Shown here: piece by piece, positions 49,634 to 57,023 of the stretch
Position numbering within the stretch: position 1 is the stretch's first letter
How the letters are laid out: each line of letters begins with the position of its first letter
DNA from: Candidatus Latescibacterota bacterium
GTDB taxonomy: Bacteria; Latescibacterota; UBA2968
Direction of reading: 5' to 3'
Assembly: GCA_022821275.1 (NCBI GenBank)
Contig: JAJEDY010000083.1
Location: forward strand, 124,001-188,000
DNA: 64,000 bases
Translations under genes and position numbers: made by a program
The notes under the pieces: model-generated
Databases searched by the model: none
The model's input: the letters and a program-made list of their open reading frames with translations, nothing else
What the model was told of the DNA's origin: nothing

Positions 49634-50980
49634 ATGTCCCCACTCCACTTAGCCAAAACTTGTGAACTCCACGTCCACCCCGGTGGATGCTTGACCGCCG
49701 AAGACCTCATAGAACTCGGCAAAAACCTTTACGAAGACATTGACTGGACGCCTTTTACAGACGCCTATGAAGAAGCTTATGGTATTCGCCCGGATCCCAT
49801 CGCGCTCTATCGCGATGCCATATCCAATCCAACCGCGGGACTTGCCAAATTTAAAGAACACTACATCTACACCGAAAAAGACGGGGGCGACTTTGGTCGG
49901 TTTAAAGCCAAATTCAACCTCATCATCAGCCTTTTGAAACACCCGCCCAAAAGACAGGAACTTCTGATCAAGGCGTTTTTCAAAGCACATGACCGACATT
50001 GCAAAGGAGGTATCACCTTTGTCGAATACCGTTGTAGCGGCGGTGGGGAAACGCGAGAGACATTCATCGACTTTCACAGCACAAATGCCCGAATCCTCTC
50101 AAACGCATCGCAAAATAACACAACCGCGCGTTACATCATCACCCTGCACCGCCAGACCGCACAACAAGACTACGAATGGGTGCAAGAACTCCTGGAGGAA
50201 AACCCCGAACTCATCTCCACCATCGTCGGCATTGACTTTGCCGACATCGAAGAAGGCTACCCTCCCAAAGACAACCGCGAACTCTTTCAGCGCGTCCACA
50301 AAGATAACCAACAACGCCCCGAACGCGCGCTCGAAATTACCTATCATGTGGGCGAAAGCTATTTTGACAAATCCCTCGAAAGCGCGATACGCTGGTGTCA
50401 CGAAGCTGCCGAAATGGGTGCCAGACGATTGGGCCACGCCATAGCACTCGGCCTCGACCCGGCAGTCGCGATTACACGCCGCCCCGATGCACATGTGGGA
50501 GAACTGGCCAGCGAACGCCTCGACCAGATCGCTTACGATCTCACCCACGCCTCAGAGCTTTCGGCTTACGATATCGAAGTGAACGCCAGCGCACTCCAAA
50601 TCGAACGACAAATCCTGAAAAATCGAGCGCCCAACGAAATAGTCGAGCGCCCTTACAATCCCCAACGCCTCAAAGAAATCCGCAACCGCCAGCAATTTGT
50701 TCTCAACCGCCTCACACAACTCGGCACAGTCATCGAAACGTGCCCAACCTCCAATCTCCGCATCGGCGGCGTGCCCGATCCCGCCCATCACCCCATCCAC
50801 ACATTCCTCAAATCAAACGTCAACCTCGTCATCGGCGCAGACGACCCCGGCATCTTCGACAGCCCACTCGCCAGCGAAATCGACTGGGCACTCACCCACA
50901 CCGATTGGACACCCGAGGCTCTGGACAAACGCCTCGGTGATCCCCGCCGATTTCAACTGGGGACCCTGCGCCTTTCATGA
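49634..50980 (+). CDS. Adenosine deaminase family protein
   Basis: The 448-residue protein has the deaminase signature in order: H-x-H at 13-15 (CELHVHPGG), a glutamate after the HVGESYF histidine, GARRLGHAI, CPTSNLRIG, and GADDPGIF with the metal-binding aspartates. It is longer than typical adenosine deaminase, with a charged insert near residues 300-340. Deamination of adenosine or a related purine is the expected reaction; adenine or modified nucleosides are alternatives. It overlaps the convergent ATPase gene by 6 bp at the stops. Confidence 0.78.
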   Translation: MSPLHLAKTCELHVHPGGCLTAEDLIELGKNLYEDIDWTPFTDAYEEAYGIRPDPIALYRDAISNPTAGLAKFKEHYIYTEKDGGDFGRFKAKFNLIISLLKHPPKRQELLIKAFFKAHDRHCKGGITFVEYRCSGGGETRETFIDFHSTNARILSNASQNNTTARYIITLHRQTAQQDYEWVQELLEENPELISTIVGIDFADIEEGYPPKDNRELFQRVHKDNQQRPERALEITYHVGESYFDKSLESAIRWCHEAAEMGARRLGHAIALGLDPAVAITRRPDAHVGELASERLDQIAYDLTHASELSAYDIEVNASALQIERQILKNRAPNEIVERPYNPQRLKEIRNRQQFVLNRLTQLGTVIETCPTSNLRIGGVPDPAHHPIHTFLKSNVNLVIGADDPGIFDSPLASEIDWALTHTDWTPEALDKRLGDPRRFQLGTLRLS

Positions 50981-52141
50981 AATCACATCACCTGCCCATA
51001 GATATTGTAGAAACACTTTCCAGGGCATAATGCGAATTGGGCCAACAACGCGTTCTGCCGTTTCATTGCAAACAACTATAGCTTTCCTCGGCGCGAATTC
51101 ATCGATAAATGCATGCATAGGTCGAAGAACCTTGTTATCTACCTGGCTTGTACCTTTGGCCTCGATTGCCACCTCGCCATTGCCCAGCACAAAATCAACC
51201 TCTAATCCCGACTTCGTGCGCCAAAAATGAACATCGTAATACAACACACTGTAAGAAGCGTGTGCCGTTAATTCGGTAAAAATAAAATGCTCAAACGCTT
51301 TGCCAAAAATCATGCCCTGGGCATCCTCCAAATGCCGTTTTGCAAGTAGTCCAGCCACACCCACATCAAACAAATAGAACTTGGGCGCTCTGGAAATAAC
51401 CTGCCTGCTTTGCCGTCTCTTAAAAGGTTCAACTATTTTGCCTAAAAGCGTATCGACGAGAATTTGATAATACTCTTTCACGGTCTTGGAACTCACGCCA
51501 CATTCTCGCGCAATATTAGAAAAGTTAGTCAGCTCGCCATGAGAGTATCCCATTGCATCGAAAAATCTGGAAAATGCCGGAATATTGCGCGTCAACCCCT
51601 CGTCAAAAACTTCTTCCTTGAGGTAGTCCTGCACATAAGCATTCAGAGAACGGCGATATTGCGTACTGGTAAAATGATCGGGAATCAGACCGCGATTCAA
51701 AATCCTCAGGAGATCCATATCGCCGTCAGGCAACTCATCTGTCACCAATGGAAACATTTCATATCGCCAGGCGCGTCCACCGAGCAAATTGGCCCGTCCC
51801 CGCTTGAGCTTTCGCGCACTGGAACCACATAAAATAAAACGCAGTCCCTTATTTTCTATCAGCCAATGCACCTCATCCAATAAAAGCGGCACGCGTTGAA
51901 CCTCATCCAGGATAATCGGATGTGCCAATAATGCTTCGGATTGTGCGAGAATTTGCTCGCGCAACATGGCTGGTCGCCGGCTGAAATCCAGCATCAAATC
52001 CGTCTTTAGAAAATCATAGACCAGACTGTTGGGAAACACCTGTTTGAGATATGTGGATTTACCCGTTTTTCGCGGTCCCCACAAAAAAGCCGACTGTCGG
52101 TCGGGCAAATCGATTTTTAAATGCCGAAAATAGTGTACCAT
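50975..52141 (-). CDS. AAA family ATPase with DUF4143 domain
   Basis: A 388-residue protein with Walker A GPRKTGKST (22-30), Walker B IILDEVQRVP (about 76-85), the sensor-like FILCGSSARK and a C-terminal DUF4143 nuclease-like part with DVHFWRTKSGLEVDFVL, which resembles the PD-(D/E)xK motif. Proteins of this class are widespread and poorly understood; they have been linked to mobile and defence regions. The start at 52141 lies in the second copy of a 31-bp tandem repeat and has GGAGGAAAG upstream. Confidence 0.88.
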   Translation of the reverse strand: MVHYFRHLKIDLPDRQSAFLWGPRKTGKSTYLKQVFPNSLVYDFLKTDLMLDFSRRPAMLREQILAQSEALLAHPIILDEVQRVPLLLDEVHWLIENKGLRFILCGSSARKLKRGRANLLGGRAWRYEMFPLVTDELPDGDMDLLRILNRGLIPDHFTSTQYRRSLNAYVQDYLKEEVFDEGLTRNIPAFSRFFDAMGYSHGELTNFSNIARECGVSSKTVKEYYQILVDTLLGKIVEPFKRRQSRQVISRAPKFYLFDVGVAGLLAKRHLEDAQGMIFGKAFEHFIFTELTAHASYSVLYYDVHFWRTKSGLEVDFVLGNGEVAIEAKGTSQVDNKVLRPMHAFIDEFAPRKAIVVCNETAERVVGPIRIMPWKVFLQYLWAGDVIS

Positions 52142-52195: not shown

Positions 52196-52229
52196 TTAAT
52201 GTCAAGACATAGATTATTGGTGTCCAAAC

Positions 52230-52245
52230 TGTCCGAAAACGGACA
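52230..52245. promoter_or_regulatory. Palindromic upstream activator site, probable bEBP binding site
   Basis: A perfect palindrome TGTCCG-AAAA-CGGACA, flanked by further half-sites TGTCC at 52221 and CGGACAC at 52261. It lies about 90 bp before a sigma54-type promoter, the usual position for an NtrC-family activator. The activator gene is not in the window. Confidence 0.75.
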
Positions 52246-52331
52246 CCACTGTATCATTATCGGACACTTGTGTGGGTACGTCAAATCCCTCTTTTCACTT
52301 AACCTGTTGAAAAATATACACAAATAATTTT

Positions 52332-52346
52332 TGGCACGGTTATTGC
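52332..52346 (+). promoter_or_regulatory. Sigma54 (-24/-12) promoter
   Basis: TGGCAC, a five-base spacer and TTGC followed by T match the sigma54 consensus, with GG and GC separated by the required 10 bp. Transcription is predicted to start near 52358, about 40 bp ahead of the permease ATG at 52399. Confidence 0.85.
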
Positions 52347-52398
52347 TAATAATAAAATAACACTTGATAGCCTATCTTATTTTTTTCCAGGAGGAACC

Positions 52399-54780
52399 AT
52401 GTTCAAAAACCACATCACCGTCGCCATCCGCACACTCTTGCGTCACAAAGTCTATTCTTTTGTCAACATATCTGGACTCGCCGTTGGTATTGCGTGCTGC
52501 ATGTTGATCATGCTCTTTGTACAGGACGAATTAAGCTACGATAAATTTCACAAAAATGCCGACCAAATCTATCGCGTTTTGTGGAACGGCCGATACGGCG
52601 ACAACGAATGGACCATTCCCTATGTTGAAGTTCCCATATCTGAAACTCTAAAAGAACGATTTCCAGAGGTCGTTCACAGCACGCGATTGAGGCGAGAAAG
52701 CCAAACTATCCACCGAGAATCGAATTATGTCATAGAGAAAAATTTCTACTACGCGGAAGGCAGCTTCTTCAATGTCTTTACCGTCCCCTTCATCGCGGGA
52801 GATCCCACAACAGCACTCGATGCCCCCAACGCTGTCATCCTCACAGAACAAAGCGCGCAGCGTTACTTTCCCAATCGCGACCCAATGGGACAAACCCTTG
52901 ACCTCAACGATGGCAAATCACTCCAAGTAACGGGCGTGGTCAAAGCATTCCCACCCCAGTCCCATTTTCACTTCGACTTTCTCGCCCCCCTCAAAACACT
53001 TCCCATTATCGAGAGCAGAAAATCCGCCTGGGGATCGGCCACTGTTTATACGTACCTCGTGTTAAAAGACGGGGCATCTGCTTCGGAATTGCAAACCAAA
53101 TTTACAGCTTATGTTCGCGAACACATCTTGAGCAAAATGCCTCCTATGCCCGGCTACCACACCAACTACCTCATCCAATCCCTCACAGACATCCATTTAC
53201 ATTCAAACCTCAAATATGAAATCACAGCAAACAGCAACATCATGTATGTCTATATATTTTCACTCATCGCAATTTTTGTCCTGATACTCGCCTGCATTAA
53301 CTTCGTCAACCTCTCCACAGCGCGTTCATCAACCCGTGCCCGCGAAGTCGGCGTTCGAAAAGTCCTCGGATCTCACCGCTCGCAACTCATTCGCCAATTC
53401 TTCTCCGAATCCACCATCTGCGTCGCCTTCGCAAGTATTCTGGCAATTGGATTATGCGAATTGGGGCTACCACTGCTCAACGGCCTTGCAAACAAACACC
53501 TCACAATGGGCAGCCTGATCGCGCCCCATGTGCTCATTGGATTATTTGCTCTCATCATCGTCGTCAGCCTCCTATCCGGCATGTATCCAGCACTTTACCT
53601 CTCCTCATTCTGGCCTGTTACAGCGCTCAAAGGATATATCTCATCGGGCAAAGCCTATCTTCGCAATGGACTGGTCATCGCACAGTTTTGCATTTCCATC
53701 AGTCTATTGGTCGGCACACTCGTCGTTCGCGACCAGATTCATTTCACGCAAAATAAACACCTCGGATTTGACAAGGAACACGTCCTCATACTCCGGGAGA
53801 TACCGCGTACCCTGACCTCTCCCAGACAAGCCATGACATTCAGAGACCAATTCGAAACACTACCACAGGTCGCTACAGCCTCACTCAATACGGGCGTACC
53901 GGGGCGTGATTTTGATTCCATGCTCTTCGTACCCGAACAACCGGCAAATTATGAAAAAACATCCCTCACATACACATTGGTAGATGAAAAATACGTCGAA
54001 GCACTGAATATAGAAATTTTAGAAGGCCGCAACTTTTCTCCCACAGAACATGCAACAGATGTCTCTGCATTTCTCGTCAATCAATCCGCCGTCAAAGCAC
54101 TGGGATGGCAAACTGCACTCGGCAAAAAACTCAAAAGAGGCAGCGGAACCGAAGGCCCGATTATCGGTGTGATATCCGATTTCCACATCGGCTCACTCAA
54201 ACAGGAAATTGAGCCGCTCGTATTGCCCTATCTATACCGACTTCCAATGTACCTTGCCATTCGCCTCCACCCCGGCAATGTCGCAGAAACCATTTCTGCG
54301 GTTGAAGAAACCTGGAAAAAGCTCGCACCAAATCAGCCCTTCAACTACACATTCTTAGACCAGGATTACGCCAAGCTCTACAACCGGGAACAACAAATGT
54401 CCCACGTCTTTCAAATCTTTTCCGGCCTCGCCATCCTCATCGCCTGCCTCGGACTCTTTGGTCTGGCTGCGTTTACCACCCAACAACGCACCAAGGAAAT
54501 CGGCATTCGCAAAATCCTCGGTGCCTCTGTCTCAGGCATTGTGTGCTTGCTCTCCAAAGACTTTCTCAAACTCGTCCTCATCGCCAATCTCATCGCCTGG
54601 CCTATCGCATATTACGCAATGGACCAGTGGCTCCAAGGCTTCGCTTACCGCATCAACCTGGGCATCAGCACGTTTATCCTGAGCGGCCTCATCGCCTTGC
54701 TCATCGCGCTTCTGACCGTCTGCTATCAAGCCATCAAAGCTGCGCGGGCGAATCCGGTGGAGGCACTACGGTATGAGTAA
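52399..54780 (+). CDS. MacB/FtsX-type ABC transporter permease
   Basis: The 793-residue protein has two copies of the MacB periplasmic core plus FtsX layout: an N-terminal helix (residues 21-41, FVNISGLAVGIACCMLIMLF), a periplasmic domain, three helices around 290-440, then a second periplasmic domain and three helices at 670-785. RTKEIGIRKILGAS and an equivalent REVGVRKVLGSH mark the coupling helices. The ATPase partner is not adjacent. Such permeases handle lipoproteins, peptides or drugs and often sit under two-component control. CAGGAGG precedes the ATG, and transcription is predicted from a sigma54 promoter. Confidence 0.9.
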   Translation: MFKNHITVAIRTLLRHKVYSFVNISGLAVGIACCMLIMLFVQDELSYDKFHKNADQIYRVLWNGRYGDNEWTIPYVEVPISETLKERFPEVVHSTRLRRESQTIHRESNYVIEKNFYYAEGSFFNVFTVPFIAGDPTTALDAPNAVILTEQSAQRYFPNRDPMGQTLDLNDGKSLQVTGVVKAFPPQSHFHFDFLAPLKTLPIIESRKSAWGSATVYTYLVLKDGASASELQTKFTAYVREHILSKMPPMPGYHTNYLIQSLTDIHLHSNLKYEITANSNIMYVYIFSLIAIFVLILACINFVNLSTARSSTRAREVGVRKVLGSHRSQLIRQFFSESTICVAFASILAIGLCELGLPLLNGLANKHLTMGSLIAPHVLIGLFALIIVVSLLSGMYPALYLSSFWPVTALKGYISSGKAYLRNGLVIAQFCISISLLVGTLVVRDQIHFTQNKHLGFDKEHVLILREIPRTLTSPRQAMTFRDQFETLPQVATASLNTGVPGRDFDSMLFVPEQPANYEKTSLTYTLVDEKYVEALNIEILEGRNFSPTEHATDVSAFLVNQSAVKALGWQTALGKKLKRGSGTEGPIIGVISDFHIGSLKQEIEPLVLPYLYRLPMYLAIRLHPGNVAETISAVEETWKKLAPNQPFNYTFLDQDYAKLYNREQQMSHVFQIFSGLAILIACLGLFGLAAFTTQQRTKEIGIRKILGASVSGIVCLLSKDFLKLVLIANLIAWPIAYYAMDQWLQGFAYRINLGISTFILSGLIALLIALLTVCYQAIKAARANPVEALRYE

Positions 54781-54865
54781 TGACAGAGATAAGAGAGCCT
54801 ACCTCTATTCACACGCTTGACATACTGTGTTCAAAACCGTATTTTCCGCGTCAAAGGAGAACACC

Positions 54866-55615
54866 GTGTTTGAACCCAGTATGAAAACATTTTACGACAC
54901 CCACGGCTATCTCGTCGTAAAAAGCCTCTTTCAAAAAGAAGAACTCGCCGACGTCATACAGCGCACCGACGAAATTGTAGCCAACCCGGACCGCGCACCT
55001 GAGGGCATCTCAATAGGCCTTGAAGGCAATACCGTAAAAGACAAATCAAACCTTGAAGCGCAAAATCAAAGTGTGCGCGTTCTCGCATTTGTCGTGCGCT
55101 TTGATCCCGCCTATCACCCCATTGCCAGACATCCCAAATTACTCGCACTCGTGCGCGGCTTGATCGGACCGCGTATTCGCGTTTTTCGCGACCAGATGCT
55201 GCTCAAGCCCCCAGGCGGTCAGGCAAAACCGCCGCATCAGGACCAGAGCTATTTTCGCGTACAACCCATCAATGGTCTCGTCACCGCCTGGATTGCCTTA
55301 GACGAGGCCACAGATACCAATGGCTGTATGCGTTATGTACCCAGCTCACACAGACACGGCATCTTCGACATCGCCCATGATCCAGACCGTCCCGTGCATC
55401 ACATACCCGATACGAGAAATATCGCTCTCCCCGAATCCGTCGCCTGTCCCGTACCCGCAGGATCTGTCATTTTTCACCACGGCTGCACCCTGCACCACAG
55501 CGAAATAAATCACACAAACACATGGCGCAAAGCACTCATACTCCACTATGCCACAACCGATTCTCGCTCCGAACGCGAACAACTCAACAACGAAATCTCT
55601 CTTGAAATTGACTAA
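54866..55615 (+). CDS. Phytanoyl-CoA dioxygenase family protein
   Basis: GTG 54866 behind AAGGAG gives 249 residues; a longer frame upstream has no ribosome site. The iron site is visible as H-Q-D (His124 and Asp126 in KPPHQDQSYF) and a distal histidine in the IFHHGCTLHHSE region, with the 2-oxoglutarate arginine in NTWRKALILHY. PhyH enzymes hydroxylate fatty-acyl, sugar or antibiotic-type carbon centres using 2-oxoglutarate and oxygen. No cofactor or partner gene is adjacent, so the substrate is unknown. Confidence 0.9.
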   Translation: MFEPSMKTFYDTHGYLVVKSLFQKEELADVIQRTDEIVANPDRAPEGISIGLEGNTVKDKSNLEAQNQSVRVLAFVVRFDPAYHPIARHPKLLALVRGLIGPRIRVFRDQMLLKPPGGQAKPPHQDQSYFRVQPINGLVTAWIALDEATDTNGCMRYVPSSHRHGIFDIAHDPDRPVHHIPDTRNIALPESVACPVPAGSVIFHHGCTLHHSEINHTNTWRKALILHYATTDSRSEREQLNNEISLEID

Positions 55616-55840: not shown

Positions 55841-55868
55841 TTGACAAATATGTGCGTAAGTGTATATT
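55841..55868 (+). promoter_or_regulatory. Strong sigma70-type promoter for tnpB
   Basis: TTGACA (55841-55846), a 16-bp spacer and TATATT (55863-55868) form a near-consensus promoter. The start point falls at about 55875, which is the A of the tnpB ATG, so the mRNA is predicted to be leaderless. Confidence 0.75.
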
Positions 55869-55874
55869 TTATTT

Positions 55875-57023
55875 ATGCTTAAGTCCTTCAAATACAGACT
55901 GCGCCCAACGAAAAAACAGGAGAAAACCCTACTGGCGCACATTGAAGAATGTCGCTTGCTATACAACCAGCTTGTGTGTTCCAGAGTGCAAGCATGGGAA
56001 AAGAATAAAGAAAGTTTGTCGCGCTATGAGCAACAAGCGACATTGCCAATGCTGAAACAACAGCATAAATCTTTTTCTCTTGTCTATTCCCAAGTTCTTC
56101 AGCAAGTATGCCAGAGAGTAGATTGGGCGTTCAAAGGATTTTTCCGCCGTCTCAAAGAGCGGAAAAAGACGGGCGAGAAAGCAGGCTTTCCCAGATACAA
56201 GGGTCAGAATCGCTATGATTCTATCACCTATCCTCAGTTTTCCAATGGATGCCGACTGGATGAGAAAGGCTTGCGATTGGGCAAAATAGGCTGTATTCGG
56301 ATTGTCCAGCACAGACCACTTGAGGGTATGCCTAAGTCTTGCACGCTCAGGCGTACAGCGACGGGCAAGTGGTTTGTTACTATCTCTTGCGATATAGGCG
56401 ACGTAAGTAAGAAAACAGACGCTGGCTCTGCCATCGGTATTGACGTTGGCATTGAGAAATTTGCTATGTTTTCTGACGAGACAAAGATCGCTCATCCTCG
56501 CTTTTTTCAAAAAGAGGAAAAGGCACTTGCCAAAGCACAGCGCAAGTGGGACAAAGTAAAAAAAGTGTCGCCAAAGAAACGAGAGAAAGCACGTAAGACT
56601 GTTGCCAGAGTGCACGAGCGTATCTGTAATAGACGACACAATTTTGTGCATCAAGAAGCTCGCAAAGTCGTCAATAAGTATGGCTTTATTGCAACAGAAA
56701 AGTTAGACGCTAAAAAGATGCAAAAAAATCGTCGCTTGTCAAAAAGCATCTCAGACGCAGCGTGGTTCCTGTTTCGGCATTGTCTCGAATACAAAGCGGA
56801 AGAAGCTGGTATTGGATTCAAGCCTGTTGATCCTGAATACACCTCACAAGATTGCTCTTCTTGTGGACACCGCGAGAAGAAAGCCCTCTCTGATCGTGTG
56901 CATCATTGCAAAAAGTGTGGCTATACAGCAGACAGAGATCTCAATGCTGCGATAAACATATTGACTTTGGGATTACAAAGTCAGGCGGCCTGCCTGAGCG
57001 AGTCCGCTCGCAGACAGGCTTGA
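55875..57023 (+). CDS. tnpB: TnpB RNA-guided nuclease (IS200/IS605 family)
   Basis: ATG 55875 starts 382 residues (MLKSFKYRLRPTKKQE). The RuvC triad is complete: Asp190 in GIDVGIEKFA, Glu275 in IATEKLDAKK and Asp355 in TADRDLNAAIN. The zinc ribbon has Cys327, Cys330, Cys345 and Cys348. TnpB is the compact ancestor of Cas12; it uses an omega RNA from its own 3' end to cut DNA. No tnpA is present, so the copy is of the single-gene IS1341 type or has lost its transposase. The start has no ribosome site but a promoter placed to give a leaderless mRNA. Confidence 0.92.
   Translation: MLKSFKYRLRPTKKQEKTLLAHIEECRLLYNQLVCSRVQAWEKNKESLSRYEQQATLPMLKQQHKSFSLVYSQVLQQVCQRVDWAFKGFFRRLKERKKTGEKAGFPRYKGQNRYDSITYPQFSNGCRLDEKGLRLGKIGCIRIVQHRPLEGMPKSCTLRRTATGKWFVTISCDIGDVSKKTDAGSAIGIDVGIEKFAMFSDETKIAHPRFFQKEEKALAKAQRKWDKVKKVSPKKREKARKTVARVHERICNRRHNFVHQEARKVVNKYGFIATEKLDAKKMQKNRRLSKSISDAAWFLFRHCLEYKAEEAGIGFKPVDPEYTSQDCSSCGHREKKALSDRVHHCKKCGYTADRDLNAAINILTLGLQSQAACLSESARRQA

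Follow-up and report, generated by a model that had tools for sequence, protein, structure and literature searches.

A permease of the MacB/FtsX type in a Latescibacterota genome very probably belongs to a sigma54 regulon of such permeases, switched on by a phosphorylated NtrC-type response regulator, encoded on contig C81, that would act at CGGACA sites upstream of the promoters. The stretch of DNA analyzed here (the window; 64 kb, G000:C25:124001-188000) comes from an assembly of 5.66 Mb in 101 contigs, and it contains the control region of one member of this regulon, where sequence analysis confirmed positions 52332-52347 as the sigma54 promoter. The promoter, the tandem element upstream of it, its recurrence as a regulon and the conserved linkage to the regulator are established at the level of sequence, with genome-wide counts taken from pattern and family searches.

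Promoter, upstream sites and genes in the window

The control region and the genes it precedes comprise the following features.

52220-52225, + strand: extra half-site GTGTCC, from the alignment of seven orthologous promoters
52230-52245, unstranded: upstream site 1, the perfect palindrome TGTCCGAAAACGGACA (TGTCCG-AAAA-CGGACA), from the sequence
52250-52267, + strand: upstream site 2, TGTATCATTATCGGACAC, from the sequence, the tandem-element pattern and the 72-site collection
52332-52347, + strand: sigma54 -24/-12 promoter TGGCACGGTTATTGCT, 0 mismatches to TGGCACGNNNNTTGCW
52389-52395, + strand: ribosome-binding site AGGAGGA, from the sequence
52399-54780, + strand: 793-aa permease with MacB_PCD and FtsX domains, from domain search
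54827-55615, + strand: phytanoyl-CoA dioxygenase-like gene, from domain search and orthologous loci

An earlier note on this DNA had placed a -24/-12 promoter with exact spacing, and a perfect palindrome upstream of it, ahead of the permease, and both were recovered. TGGCACGGTTATTGCT is the sole 0-mismatch match to TGGCACGNNNNTTGCW in the window, in which matches with one or two mismatches occur near chance (20 in all versus 12.8 expected); TGTCCGAAAACGGACA likewise has a single exact match. The CGGACA copies of sites 1 and 2 are spaced by exactly 21 bp, the promoter match begins 65 bp after the second CGGACA, and transcription is predicted to start at about 52357. The tandem element is defined as two CGGACA half-sites 21 bp apart, the second inside TGTATCANNATCGGACAC, with TGGCAC following 63-67 bp later. 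Most other promoters of the regulon hold TGTTCATTTTCGGACA at the position of site 1, and the perfect palindrome of the window is a more symmetric version of that site, common to the window's orthologues. The extra half-sites that had been proposed on both sides fared differently: CGGACAC at 52261-52267 is the conserved half of site 2, whereas GTGTCC at 52220-52225 is not fully conserved among the seven orthologous promoters and is probably incidental. Invariant in these seven are the block TGTCCGAAAACGGACAC-N-ACTGTATCATTATCGGACAC and the stretch TTTTTGGCACGGTTATTGCT; one position between the two sites varies within the otherwise invariant element, as does much of the flanking sequence. By this alignment, the orthologous promoters carry a footprint over the tandem element and the promoter core.

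The permease contains two PCD and two FtsX stretches without an ATPase domain, and both domains exceed their Pfam cut-offs (MacB_PCD, 123 bits versus 27; FtsX, 84 bits versus 25.5), which places it in the MacB/FtsX-type permease superfamily. Such permeases are heavily expanded in the window genome, where the MacB_PCD family gives 61 hits in a domain search, most genes giving two. The phytanoyl-CoA dioxygenase-like gene starts 46 bp downstream of the permease, an adjacency kept in three orthologous loci, and is probably co-transcribed with it. Further downstream lies a gene of the IS605 OrfB/TnpB type (55860-57023, + strand; HTH_OrfB_IS605, OrfB_IS605 and Cas12f1-like TNB domains), and an AAA_14/DUF4143 ATPase gene (50975-52141, - strand) diverges from the permease across a common upstream region. 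No enhancer-binding protein (EBP) was recognized next to the permease among the open reading frames of 44-64 kb, and a search for the sigma54 activator domain gave no hit inside the 64-kb window.

Recurrence of the tandem element

How often does this arrangement recur? Lack of a sigma54 gene, which the earlier note had named as grounds for abandoning the idea, does not apply: the window genome has one rpoN (C59:57915-58388, E 8.8e-56) and 20 full-length sigma54 activator domains (EBPs; 24 hits counting weak ones). The promoter pattern TGGCAC-N5-TTGCW occurs 40 times genome-wide versus 4 in a reversed control, an enrichment of about tenfold, and the tandem-element pattern has nine matches versus none in the reversed control. 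All nine lead to a MacB/FtsX-type permease operon or a MacB-type ATPase, as located by pattern search:

C7 (three), C25 (window), C33, C34, C37, C71: tandem elements before permease operons
C99: tandem element before a MacB-type ATPase gene

The repeated co-occurrence that was to support the earlier note is therefore found. A reading of the sequence ahead of all -24/-12 matches brought out the stereotyped order before permease genes, with TGTTCATTTTCGGACAC followed by TGTATCAAAATCGGACAC and then TGGCAC. The suggestion that the palindrome marks a permease regulon stands as regards the regulon; the exact palindrome, however, is a variant of one of the two sites, and as a strict pattern (TGTCCGN4CGGACA) it occurs at two loci only in the genome, so that it was replaced as a marker by the tandem element. 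On C33 a methyltransferase gene comes first and the permeases follow, and on C71 a weaker -24/-12 match, TGGCACGATTTTTGT, lies well over 100 bp downstream of the element. The C34 operon holds permeases together with a MacA-type adaptor and two ATPases, so shared control could provide in trans what the window permease is missing. An apparent relic of the element, GTGTTCATTCTCGGCCACTACTGTATCAAAATTCG, with no -24/-12 match, lies upstream of the permease at C38:4736 (L065).

A scan of public genome contigs found the element in 60 stretches, nearly all from Latescibacterota. In most of them the first gene after the element encodes a permease or an ATPase; in others it encodes a lipoprotein, an ECF sigma factor or a type I ABC exporter. 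The half-site spacing is 21 bp in all 72 distinct Latescibacterota sites, collected with a search pattern that allowed CGGACA spacings of 19 to 21. The EBP sites expected upstream of a sigma54 promoter are present as putative sites in the sequence, at a fixed distance (the -24/-12 match starts 63-67 bp downstream) in 63/72; the other nine have no good match at the usual distance. Across the phylum, the element was found in 21 of 64 Latescibacterota genomes, including 11/11 of the window genus.

Several hits under other labels were set aside. One labelled Hyphomicrobiales (L160) has no good -24/-12 match and looks like chance. Another labelled Ekhidna (L185) has typical Latescibacterota sequence, and its own assembly lacks a C81-type EBP, as does that of a hit labelled Poribacteria (L152), with which a second Poribacteria hit (L164) was discarded; the labels of L185 and L152 likely reflect binning error or incompleteness. 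Contigs labelled Gemmatimonadota RHO2_bin_15 have the same hit coordinates as the genus member G036.

A candidate activator and its rivals

Which regulator could act at these sites? Conserved gene neighborhoods point to one candidate.

G000:C81:76168-77547: NtrC-type response regulator (EBP), candidate activator

Its Response_reg (PF00072), Sigma54_activat (PF00158) and Fis-type HTH (PF02954) domains all score above cut-off, its sigma54-contacting GAFTGA-type loop reads GAFTDA, and directly downstream lies a kinase gene whose HATPase_c domain also exceeds the cut-off. Domains, loop and partner kinase make it a member of the NtrC family of response regulators; it is not NtrC proper (NR(I)), scoring 325 bits versus an NCBIfam equivalog cut-off of 558.6. 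The kinase N-terminus, read by eye, has two hydrophobic stretches separated by hardly any loop.

The EBP gene lies far from the permeases in the window genome and adjoins no tandem element in the window genus, all 11 genomes of which carry both element and C81-type EBP. Orthologues with at least 63% identity occur in 28/64 Latescibacterota genomes, to which G035, a member of the window genus with an orthologue cut at a contig end, is additional. Just one of the 60 element-bearing stretches carries any of the 20 EBP types, and this is a C81 orthologue, 80% identical and divergent from the tandem-element promoter. Six genomes (G021, G022, G023, G025, G041 and G050) have the orthologue no more than about 0.7 kb from tandem sites, and in G002, G046, G047 and G049 it adjoins variant sites; by our own estimate, with at most six sites per 5-6 Mb, chance would be expected to create such adjacency in well below 1% of genomes. 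In other Latescibacterota genera, the pair of EBP and kinase repeatedly adjoins tandem-element/sigma54 promoters and is divergent from them; several of these promoters drive an FtsX permease, MacA or MacA-MacB-FtsX operons. Upstream of the Latescibacterota EBPs alone, CGGACA occurs in 10/22 cases versus 4.5 expected, an enrichment that is modest because the window genus has its EBP gene elsewhere. Weak tandem matches in G019, G024 and G026 come with no close orthologue of the C81 EBP.

The linkage extends to a second phylum. In a Bacteroidota family, reached via the contig labelled Ekhidna, relatives of the C81 EBP with up to 65% identity occur in 25/26 genomes, and the EBP-kinase pair lies near a MacA gene in 11/20 regions examined, most of the 11 with a MacB ATPase and FtsX. 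CGGACA is found upstream of 15/24 of these EBPs versus 2.3 expected (the largest of 200 shuffles gave 7), and one site reads TGTTCATTTTCGGACA, exactly the Latescibacterota form. The recognition helix, LGLTR[SAT][SA]LYRR, hardly varies across both phyla. An NtrC-family regulator, proposed to be sought near other FtsX/MacB genes of the genome, can thus be named from other genomes, the C81 orthologue adjoining such genes in other Latescibacterota genera and in Bacteroidota. The regulator had also been called dedicated to the permease, which did not hold up: the candidate is common to many operons and encoded elsewhere in the window genome.

Could a different protein bind the tandem element? The promoter and regulon might be real and served by another one, or several, of the 20 EBPs, as would befit the distance of the C81 gene from tandem-element promoters in the window genome and genus, the existence of other EBPs and the imperfection of site 2, which could bind another protein. 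We consider this unlikely, given that no other EBP type occurs in the 60 element-bearing stretches, that about ten Latescibacterota genomes of other genera repeat the linkage to the C81 EBP, as do Bacteroidota at the level of the operon, and that the recognition helices of the other EBPs in the window genome differ from that of the C81 EBP. Those that lie near permeases (e.g., C81:39593) were rejected on their different recognition helix and their lack of recurrence near the element.

Recent duplication of a promoter-permease cassette might also have multiplied the upstream sequence as a by-product, with no selected binding array, and the promoter on C34 is indeed like the three on C7 in its flanks, so that part of the copy number is duplication. 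As an account of the whole pattern this is very improbable, because the promoters on C25, C33, C37 and C99 keep element and spacing despite different flanks, because conservation of the element extends over genera and families and to promoters of unrelated genes, and because the orthologous promoters carry the footprint. Slighter still is the chance that the palindrome is the operator of a repressor or a sigma70-type regulator beside a fortuitous -24/-12 match. Repressors also use palindromes of such size, but this one sits upstream at enhancer distance rather than over the promoter, its distance to the -24/-12 match is the fixed one seen in 63/72 sites, such matches are enriched tenfold genome-wide, and the linked regulator is a sigma54 activator. 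Activation of the permease regulon by the C81 regulator is thus the reading we prefer.

The window genome holds further sigma54-associated loci. Proteins of about 1,060-1,100 aa, in which a two-component-type propeller is fused to a sigma54 activator and Fis HTH, are encoded on C78 (L117:8325-11516, - strand; Reg_prop and Y_Y_Y domains identified). C10 and C63 encode relatives, and the genes on C63 and C78 each have a -24/-12 match alongside, before a long open frame. A 1,641-aa protein on C46 (L101:1813-6735, + strand) combines Ser/Thr kinase, AAA_16, TPR, GAF and sigma54 activator domains, and downstream of its gene come a -24/-12 promoter and a further activator gene. One sigma54 activator, encoded on C84 (L103:1783-3474, - strand), carries a Cas_NE0113 (CRISPR-associated) domain at its N-terminus; a -24/-12 site and a gene resembling Cas6 by eye are nearby. 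Three closely similar EBPs on C30, C38 and C67 (L095, L094 and L097), whose contigs carry near-identical -24/-12 promoters agttacgggtttttggca...TGGCACGGTTTTTGCA, suggest a separate duplicated sigma54 module. At C97:30451 and C97:38101 (L100), two sigma54 promoters are almost identical and share the upstream repeat GTGCAATATTTAGTTTGCACTG; one of them comes just after an EBP gene.

Proposed mechanism and relation to known systems

How might the permease be switched on? Following the NtrC paradigm, from which binding, phosphorylation, induction, hexamer assembly, looping and ATP-driven opening are all inferred, a membrane histidine kinase would most likely phosphorylate the C81 regulator. Its dimers would bind the two CGGACA sites on the same helix face (21 bp being two turns) and assemble into a hexamer; the DNA would loop to bring it to RNA polymerase-sigma54 at the -24/-12 promoter, and ATP hydrolysis by the hexamer would open the promoter and turn the permease on. 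In parallel, the same step would turn on the MacA adaptor and the MacB-type ATPases, which are encoded elsewhere and which the permease would need. As to the signal, the target class invites the guess of envelope or toxic-compound stress, or of an exported compound. A broader reading, possible but held tentatively, is that an intramembrane-type kinase and a CGGACA-reading NtrC-type regulator form an ancient two-component system of Latescibacterota and Bacteroidota, dedicated to MacA-MacB-FtsX exporters and sensing transporter substrate or flux, which in the window genus now stands alone as the master regulator of permease operons dispersed through the genome. If so, orphan permeases, MacA and ATPases would be co-expressed in trans in that genus.

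For MacB/FtsX-type permeases, a conserved candidate kinase-regulator pair with a putative DNA site permits regulon prediction and offers a route to the inducing signals. Because the same pair occurs in Bacteroidota, with many cultivable strains, a prediction from uncultured Latescibacterota becomes testable at the bench. For Bacteroidia, Opitutia and Gammaproteobacteria, a recent study predicts sigma54 enrichment at COG0577 FtsX-like permeases, a result that it presents as the first evidence linking sigma54 with such permeases (PMC12316311, 2025). It thus concerns the same target gene class under predicted sigma54 control; its passages on FtsX permeases name no enhancer site or cognate regulator, and a text search of it gave no mention of Latescibacterota. 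To this link, so far reported as statistical enrichment, our analysis adds a candidate regulator and a putative binding site. In the open-access literature, including a paper on Latescibacteria and a sigma54 review-type analysis that were checked by term, a published description of this regulon, regulator or site was not found. Systems of this kind are known, and a general connection between sigma54 and FtsX permeases has been in print since 2025; the regulon, site and regulator assignment appear new.

Like NtrC, ZraR and AtoC, the proposed system joins a receiver, a sigma54 AAA+ domain and a Fis HTH with a kinase partner and palindromic enhancer-type sites upstream of a -24/-12 promoter. It differs from them in its CGGACA half-sites, permease targets and lineage, and the C81 EBP scores below the NCBIfam cut-offs of all three. 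The window permease shares MacB_PCD and FtsX domains with the MacB exporter and with ADOP-type duplicated permeases, and its duplicated layout aligns full length with ADOP (TIGR03434); it is neither, having, unlike MacB, no fused ABC ATPase beside these two domains and, unlike ADOP, a score (344 bits) below the curated cut-off of 622. In BceRS-BceAB systems, a kinase whose two transmembrane stretches lie close together, leaving hardly any external loop, controls FtsX/MacB-type transporters through BceR, a winged-helix regulator and not a sigma54 activator. With its two close hydrophobic stretches, as read by eye, the C81-linked kinase resembles this type, whereas its partner, unlike BceR, is a sigma54 activator.
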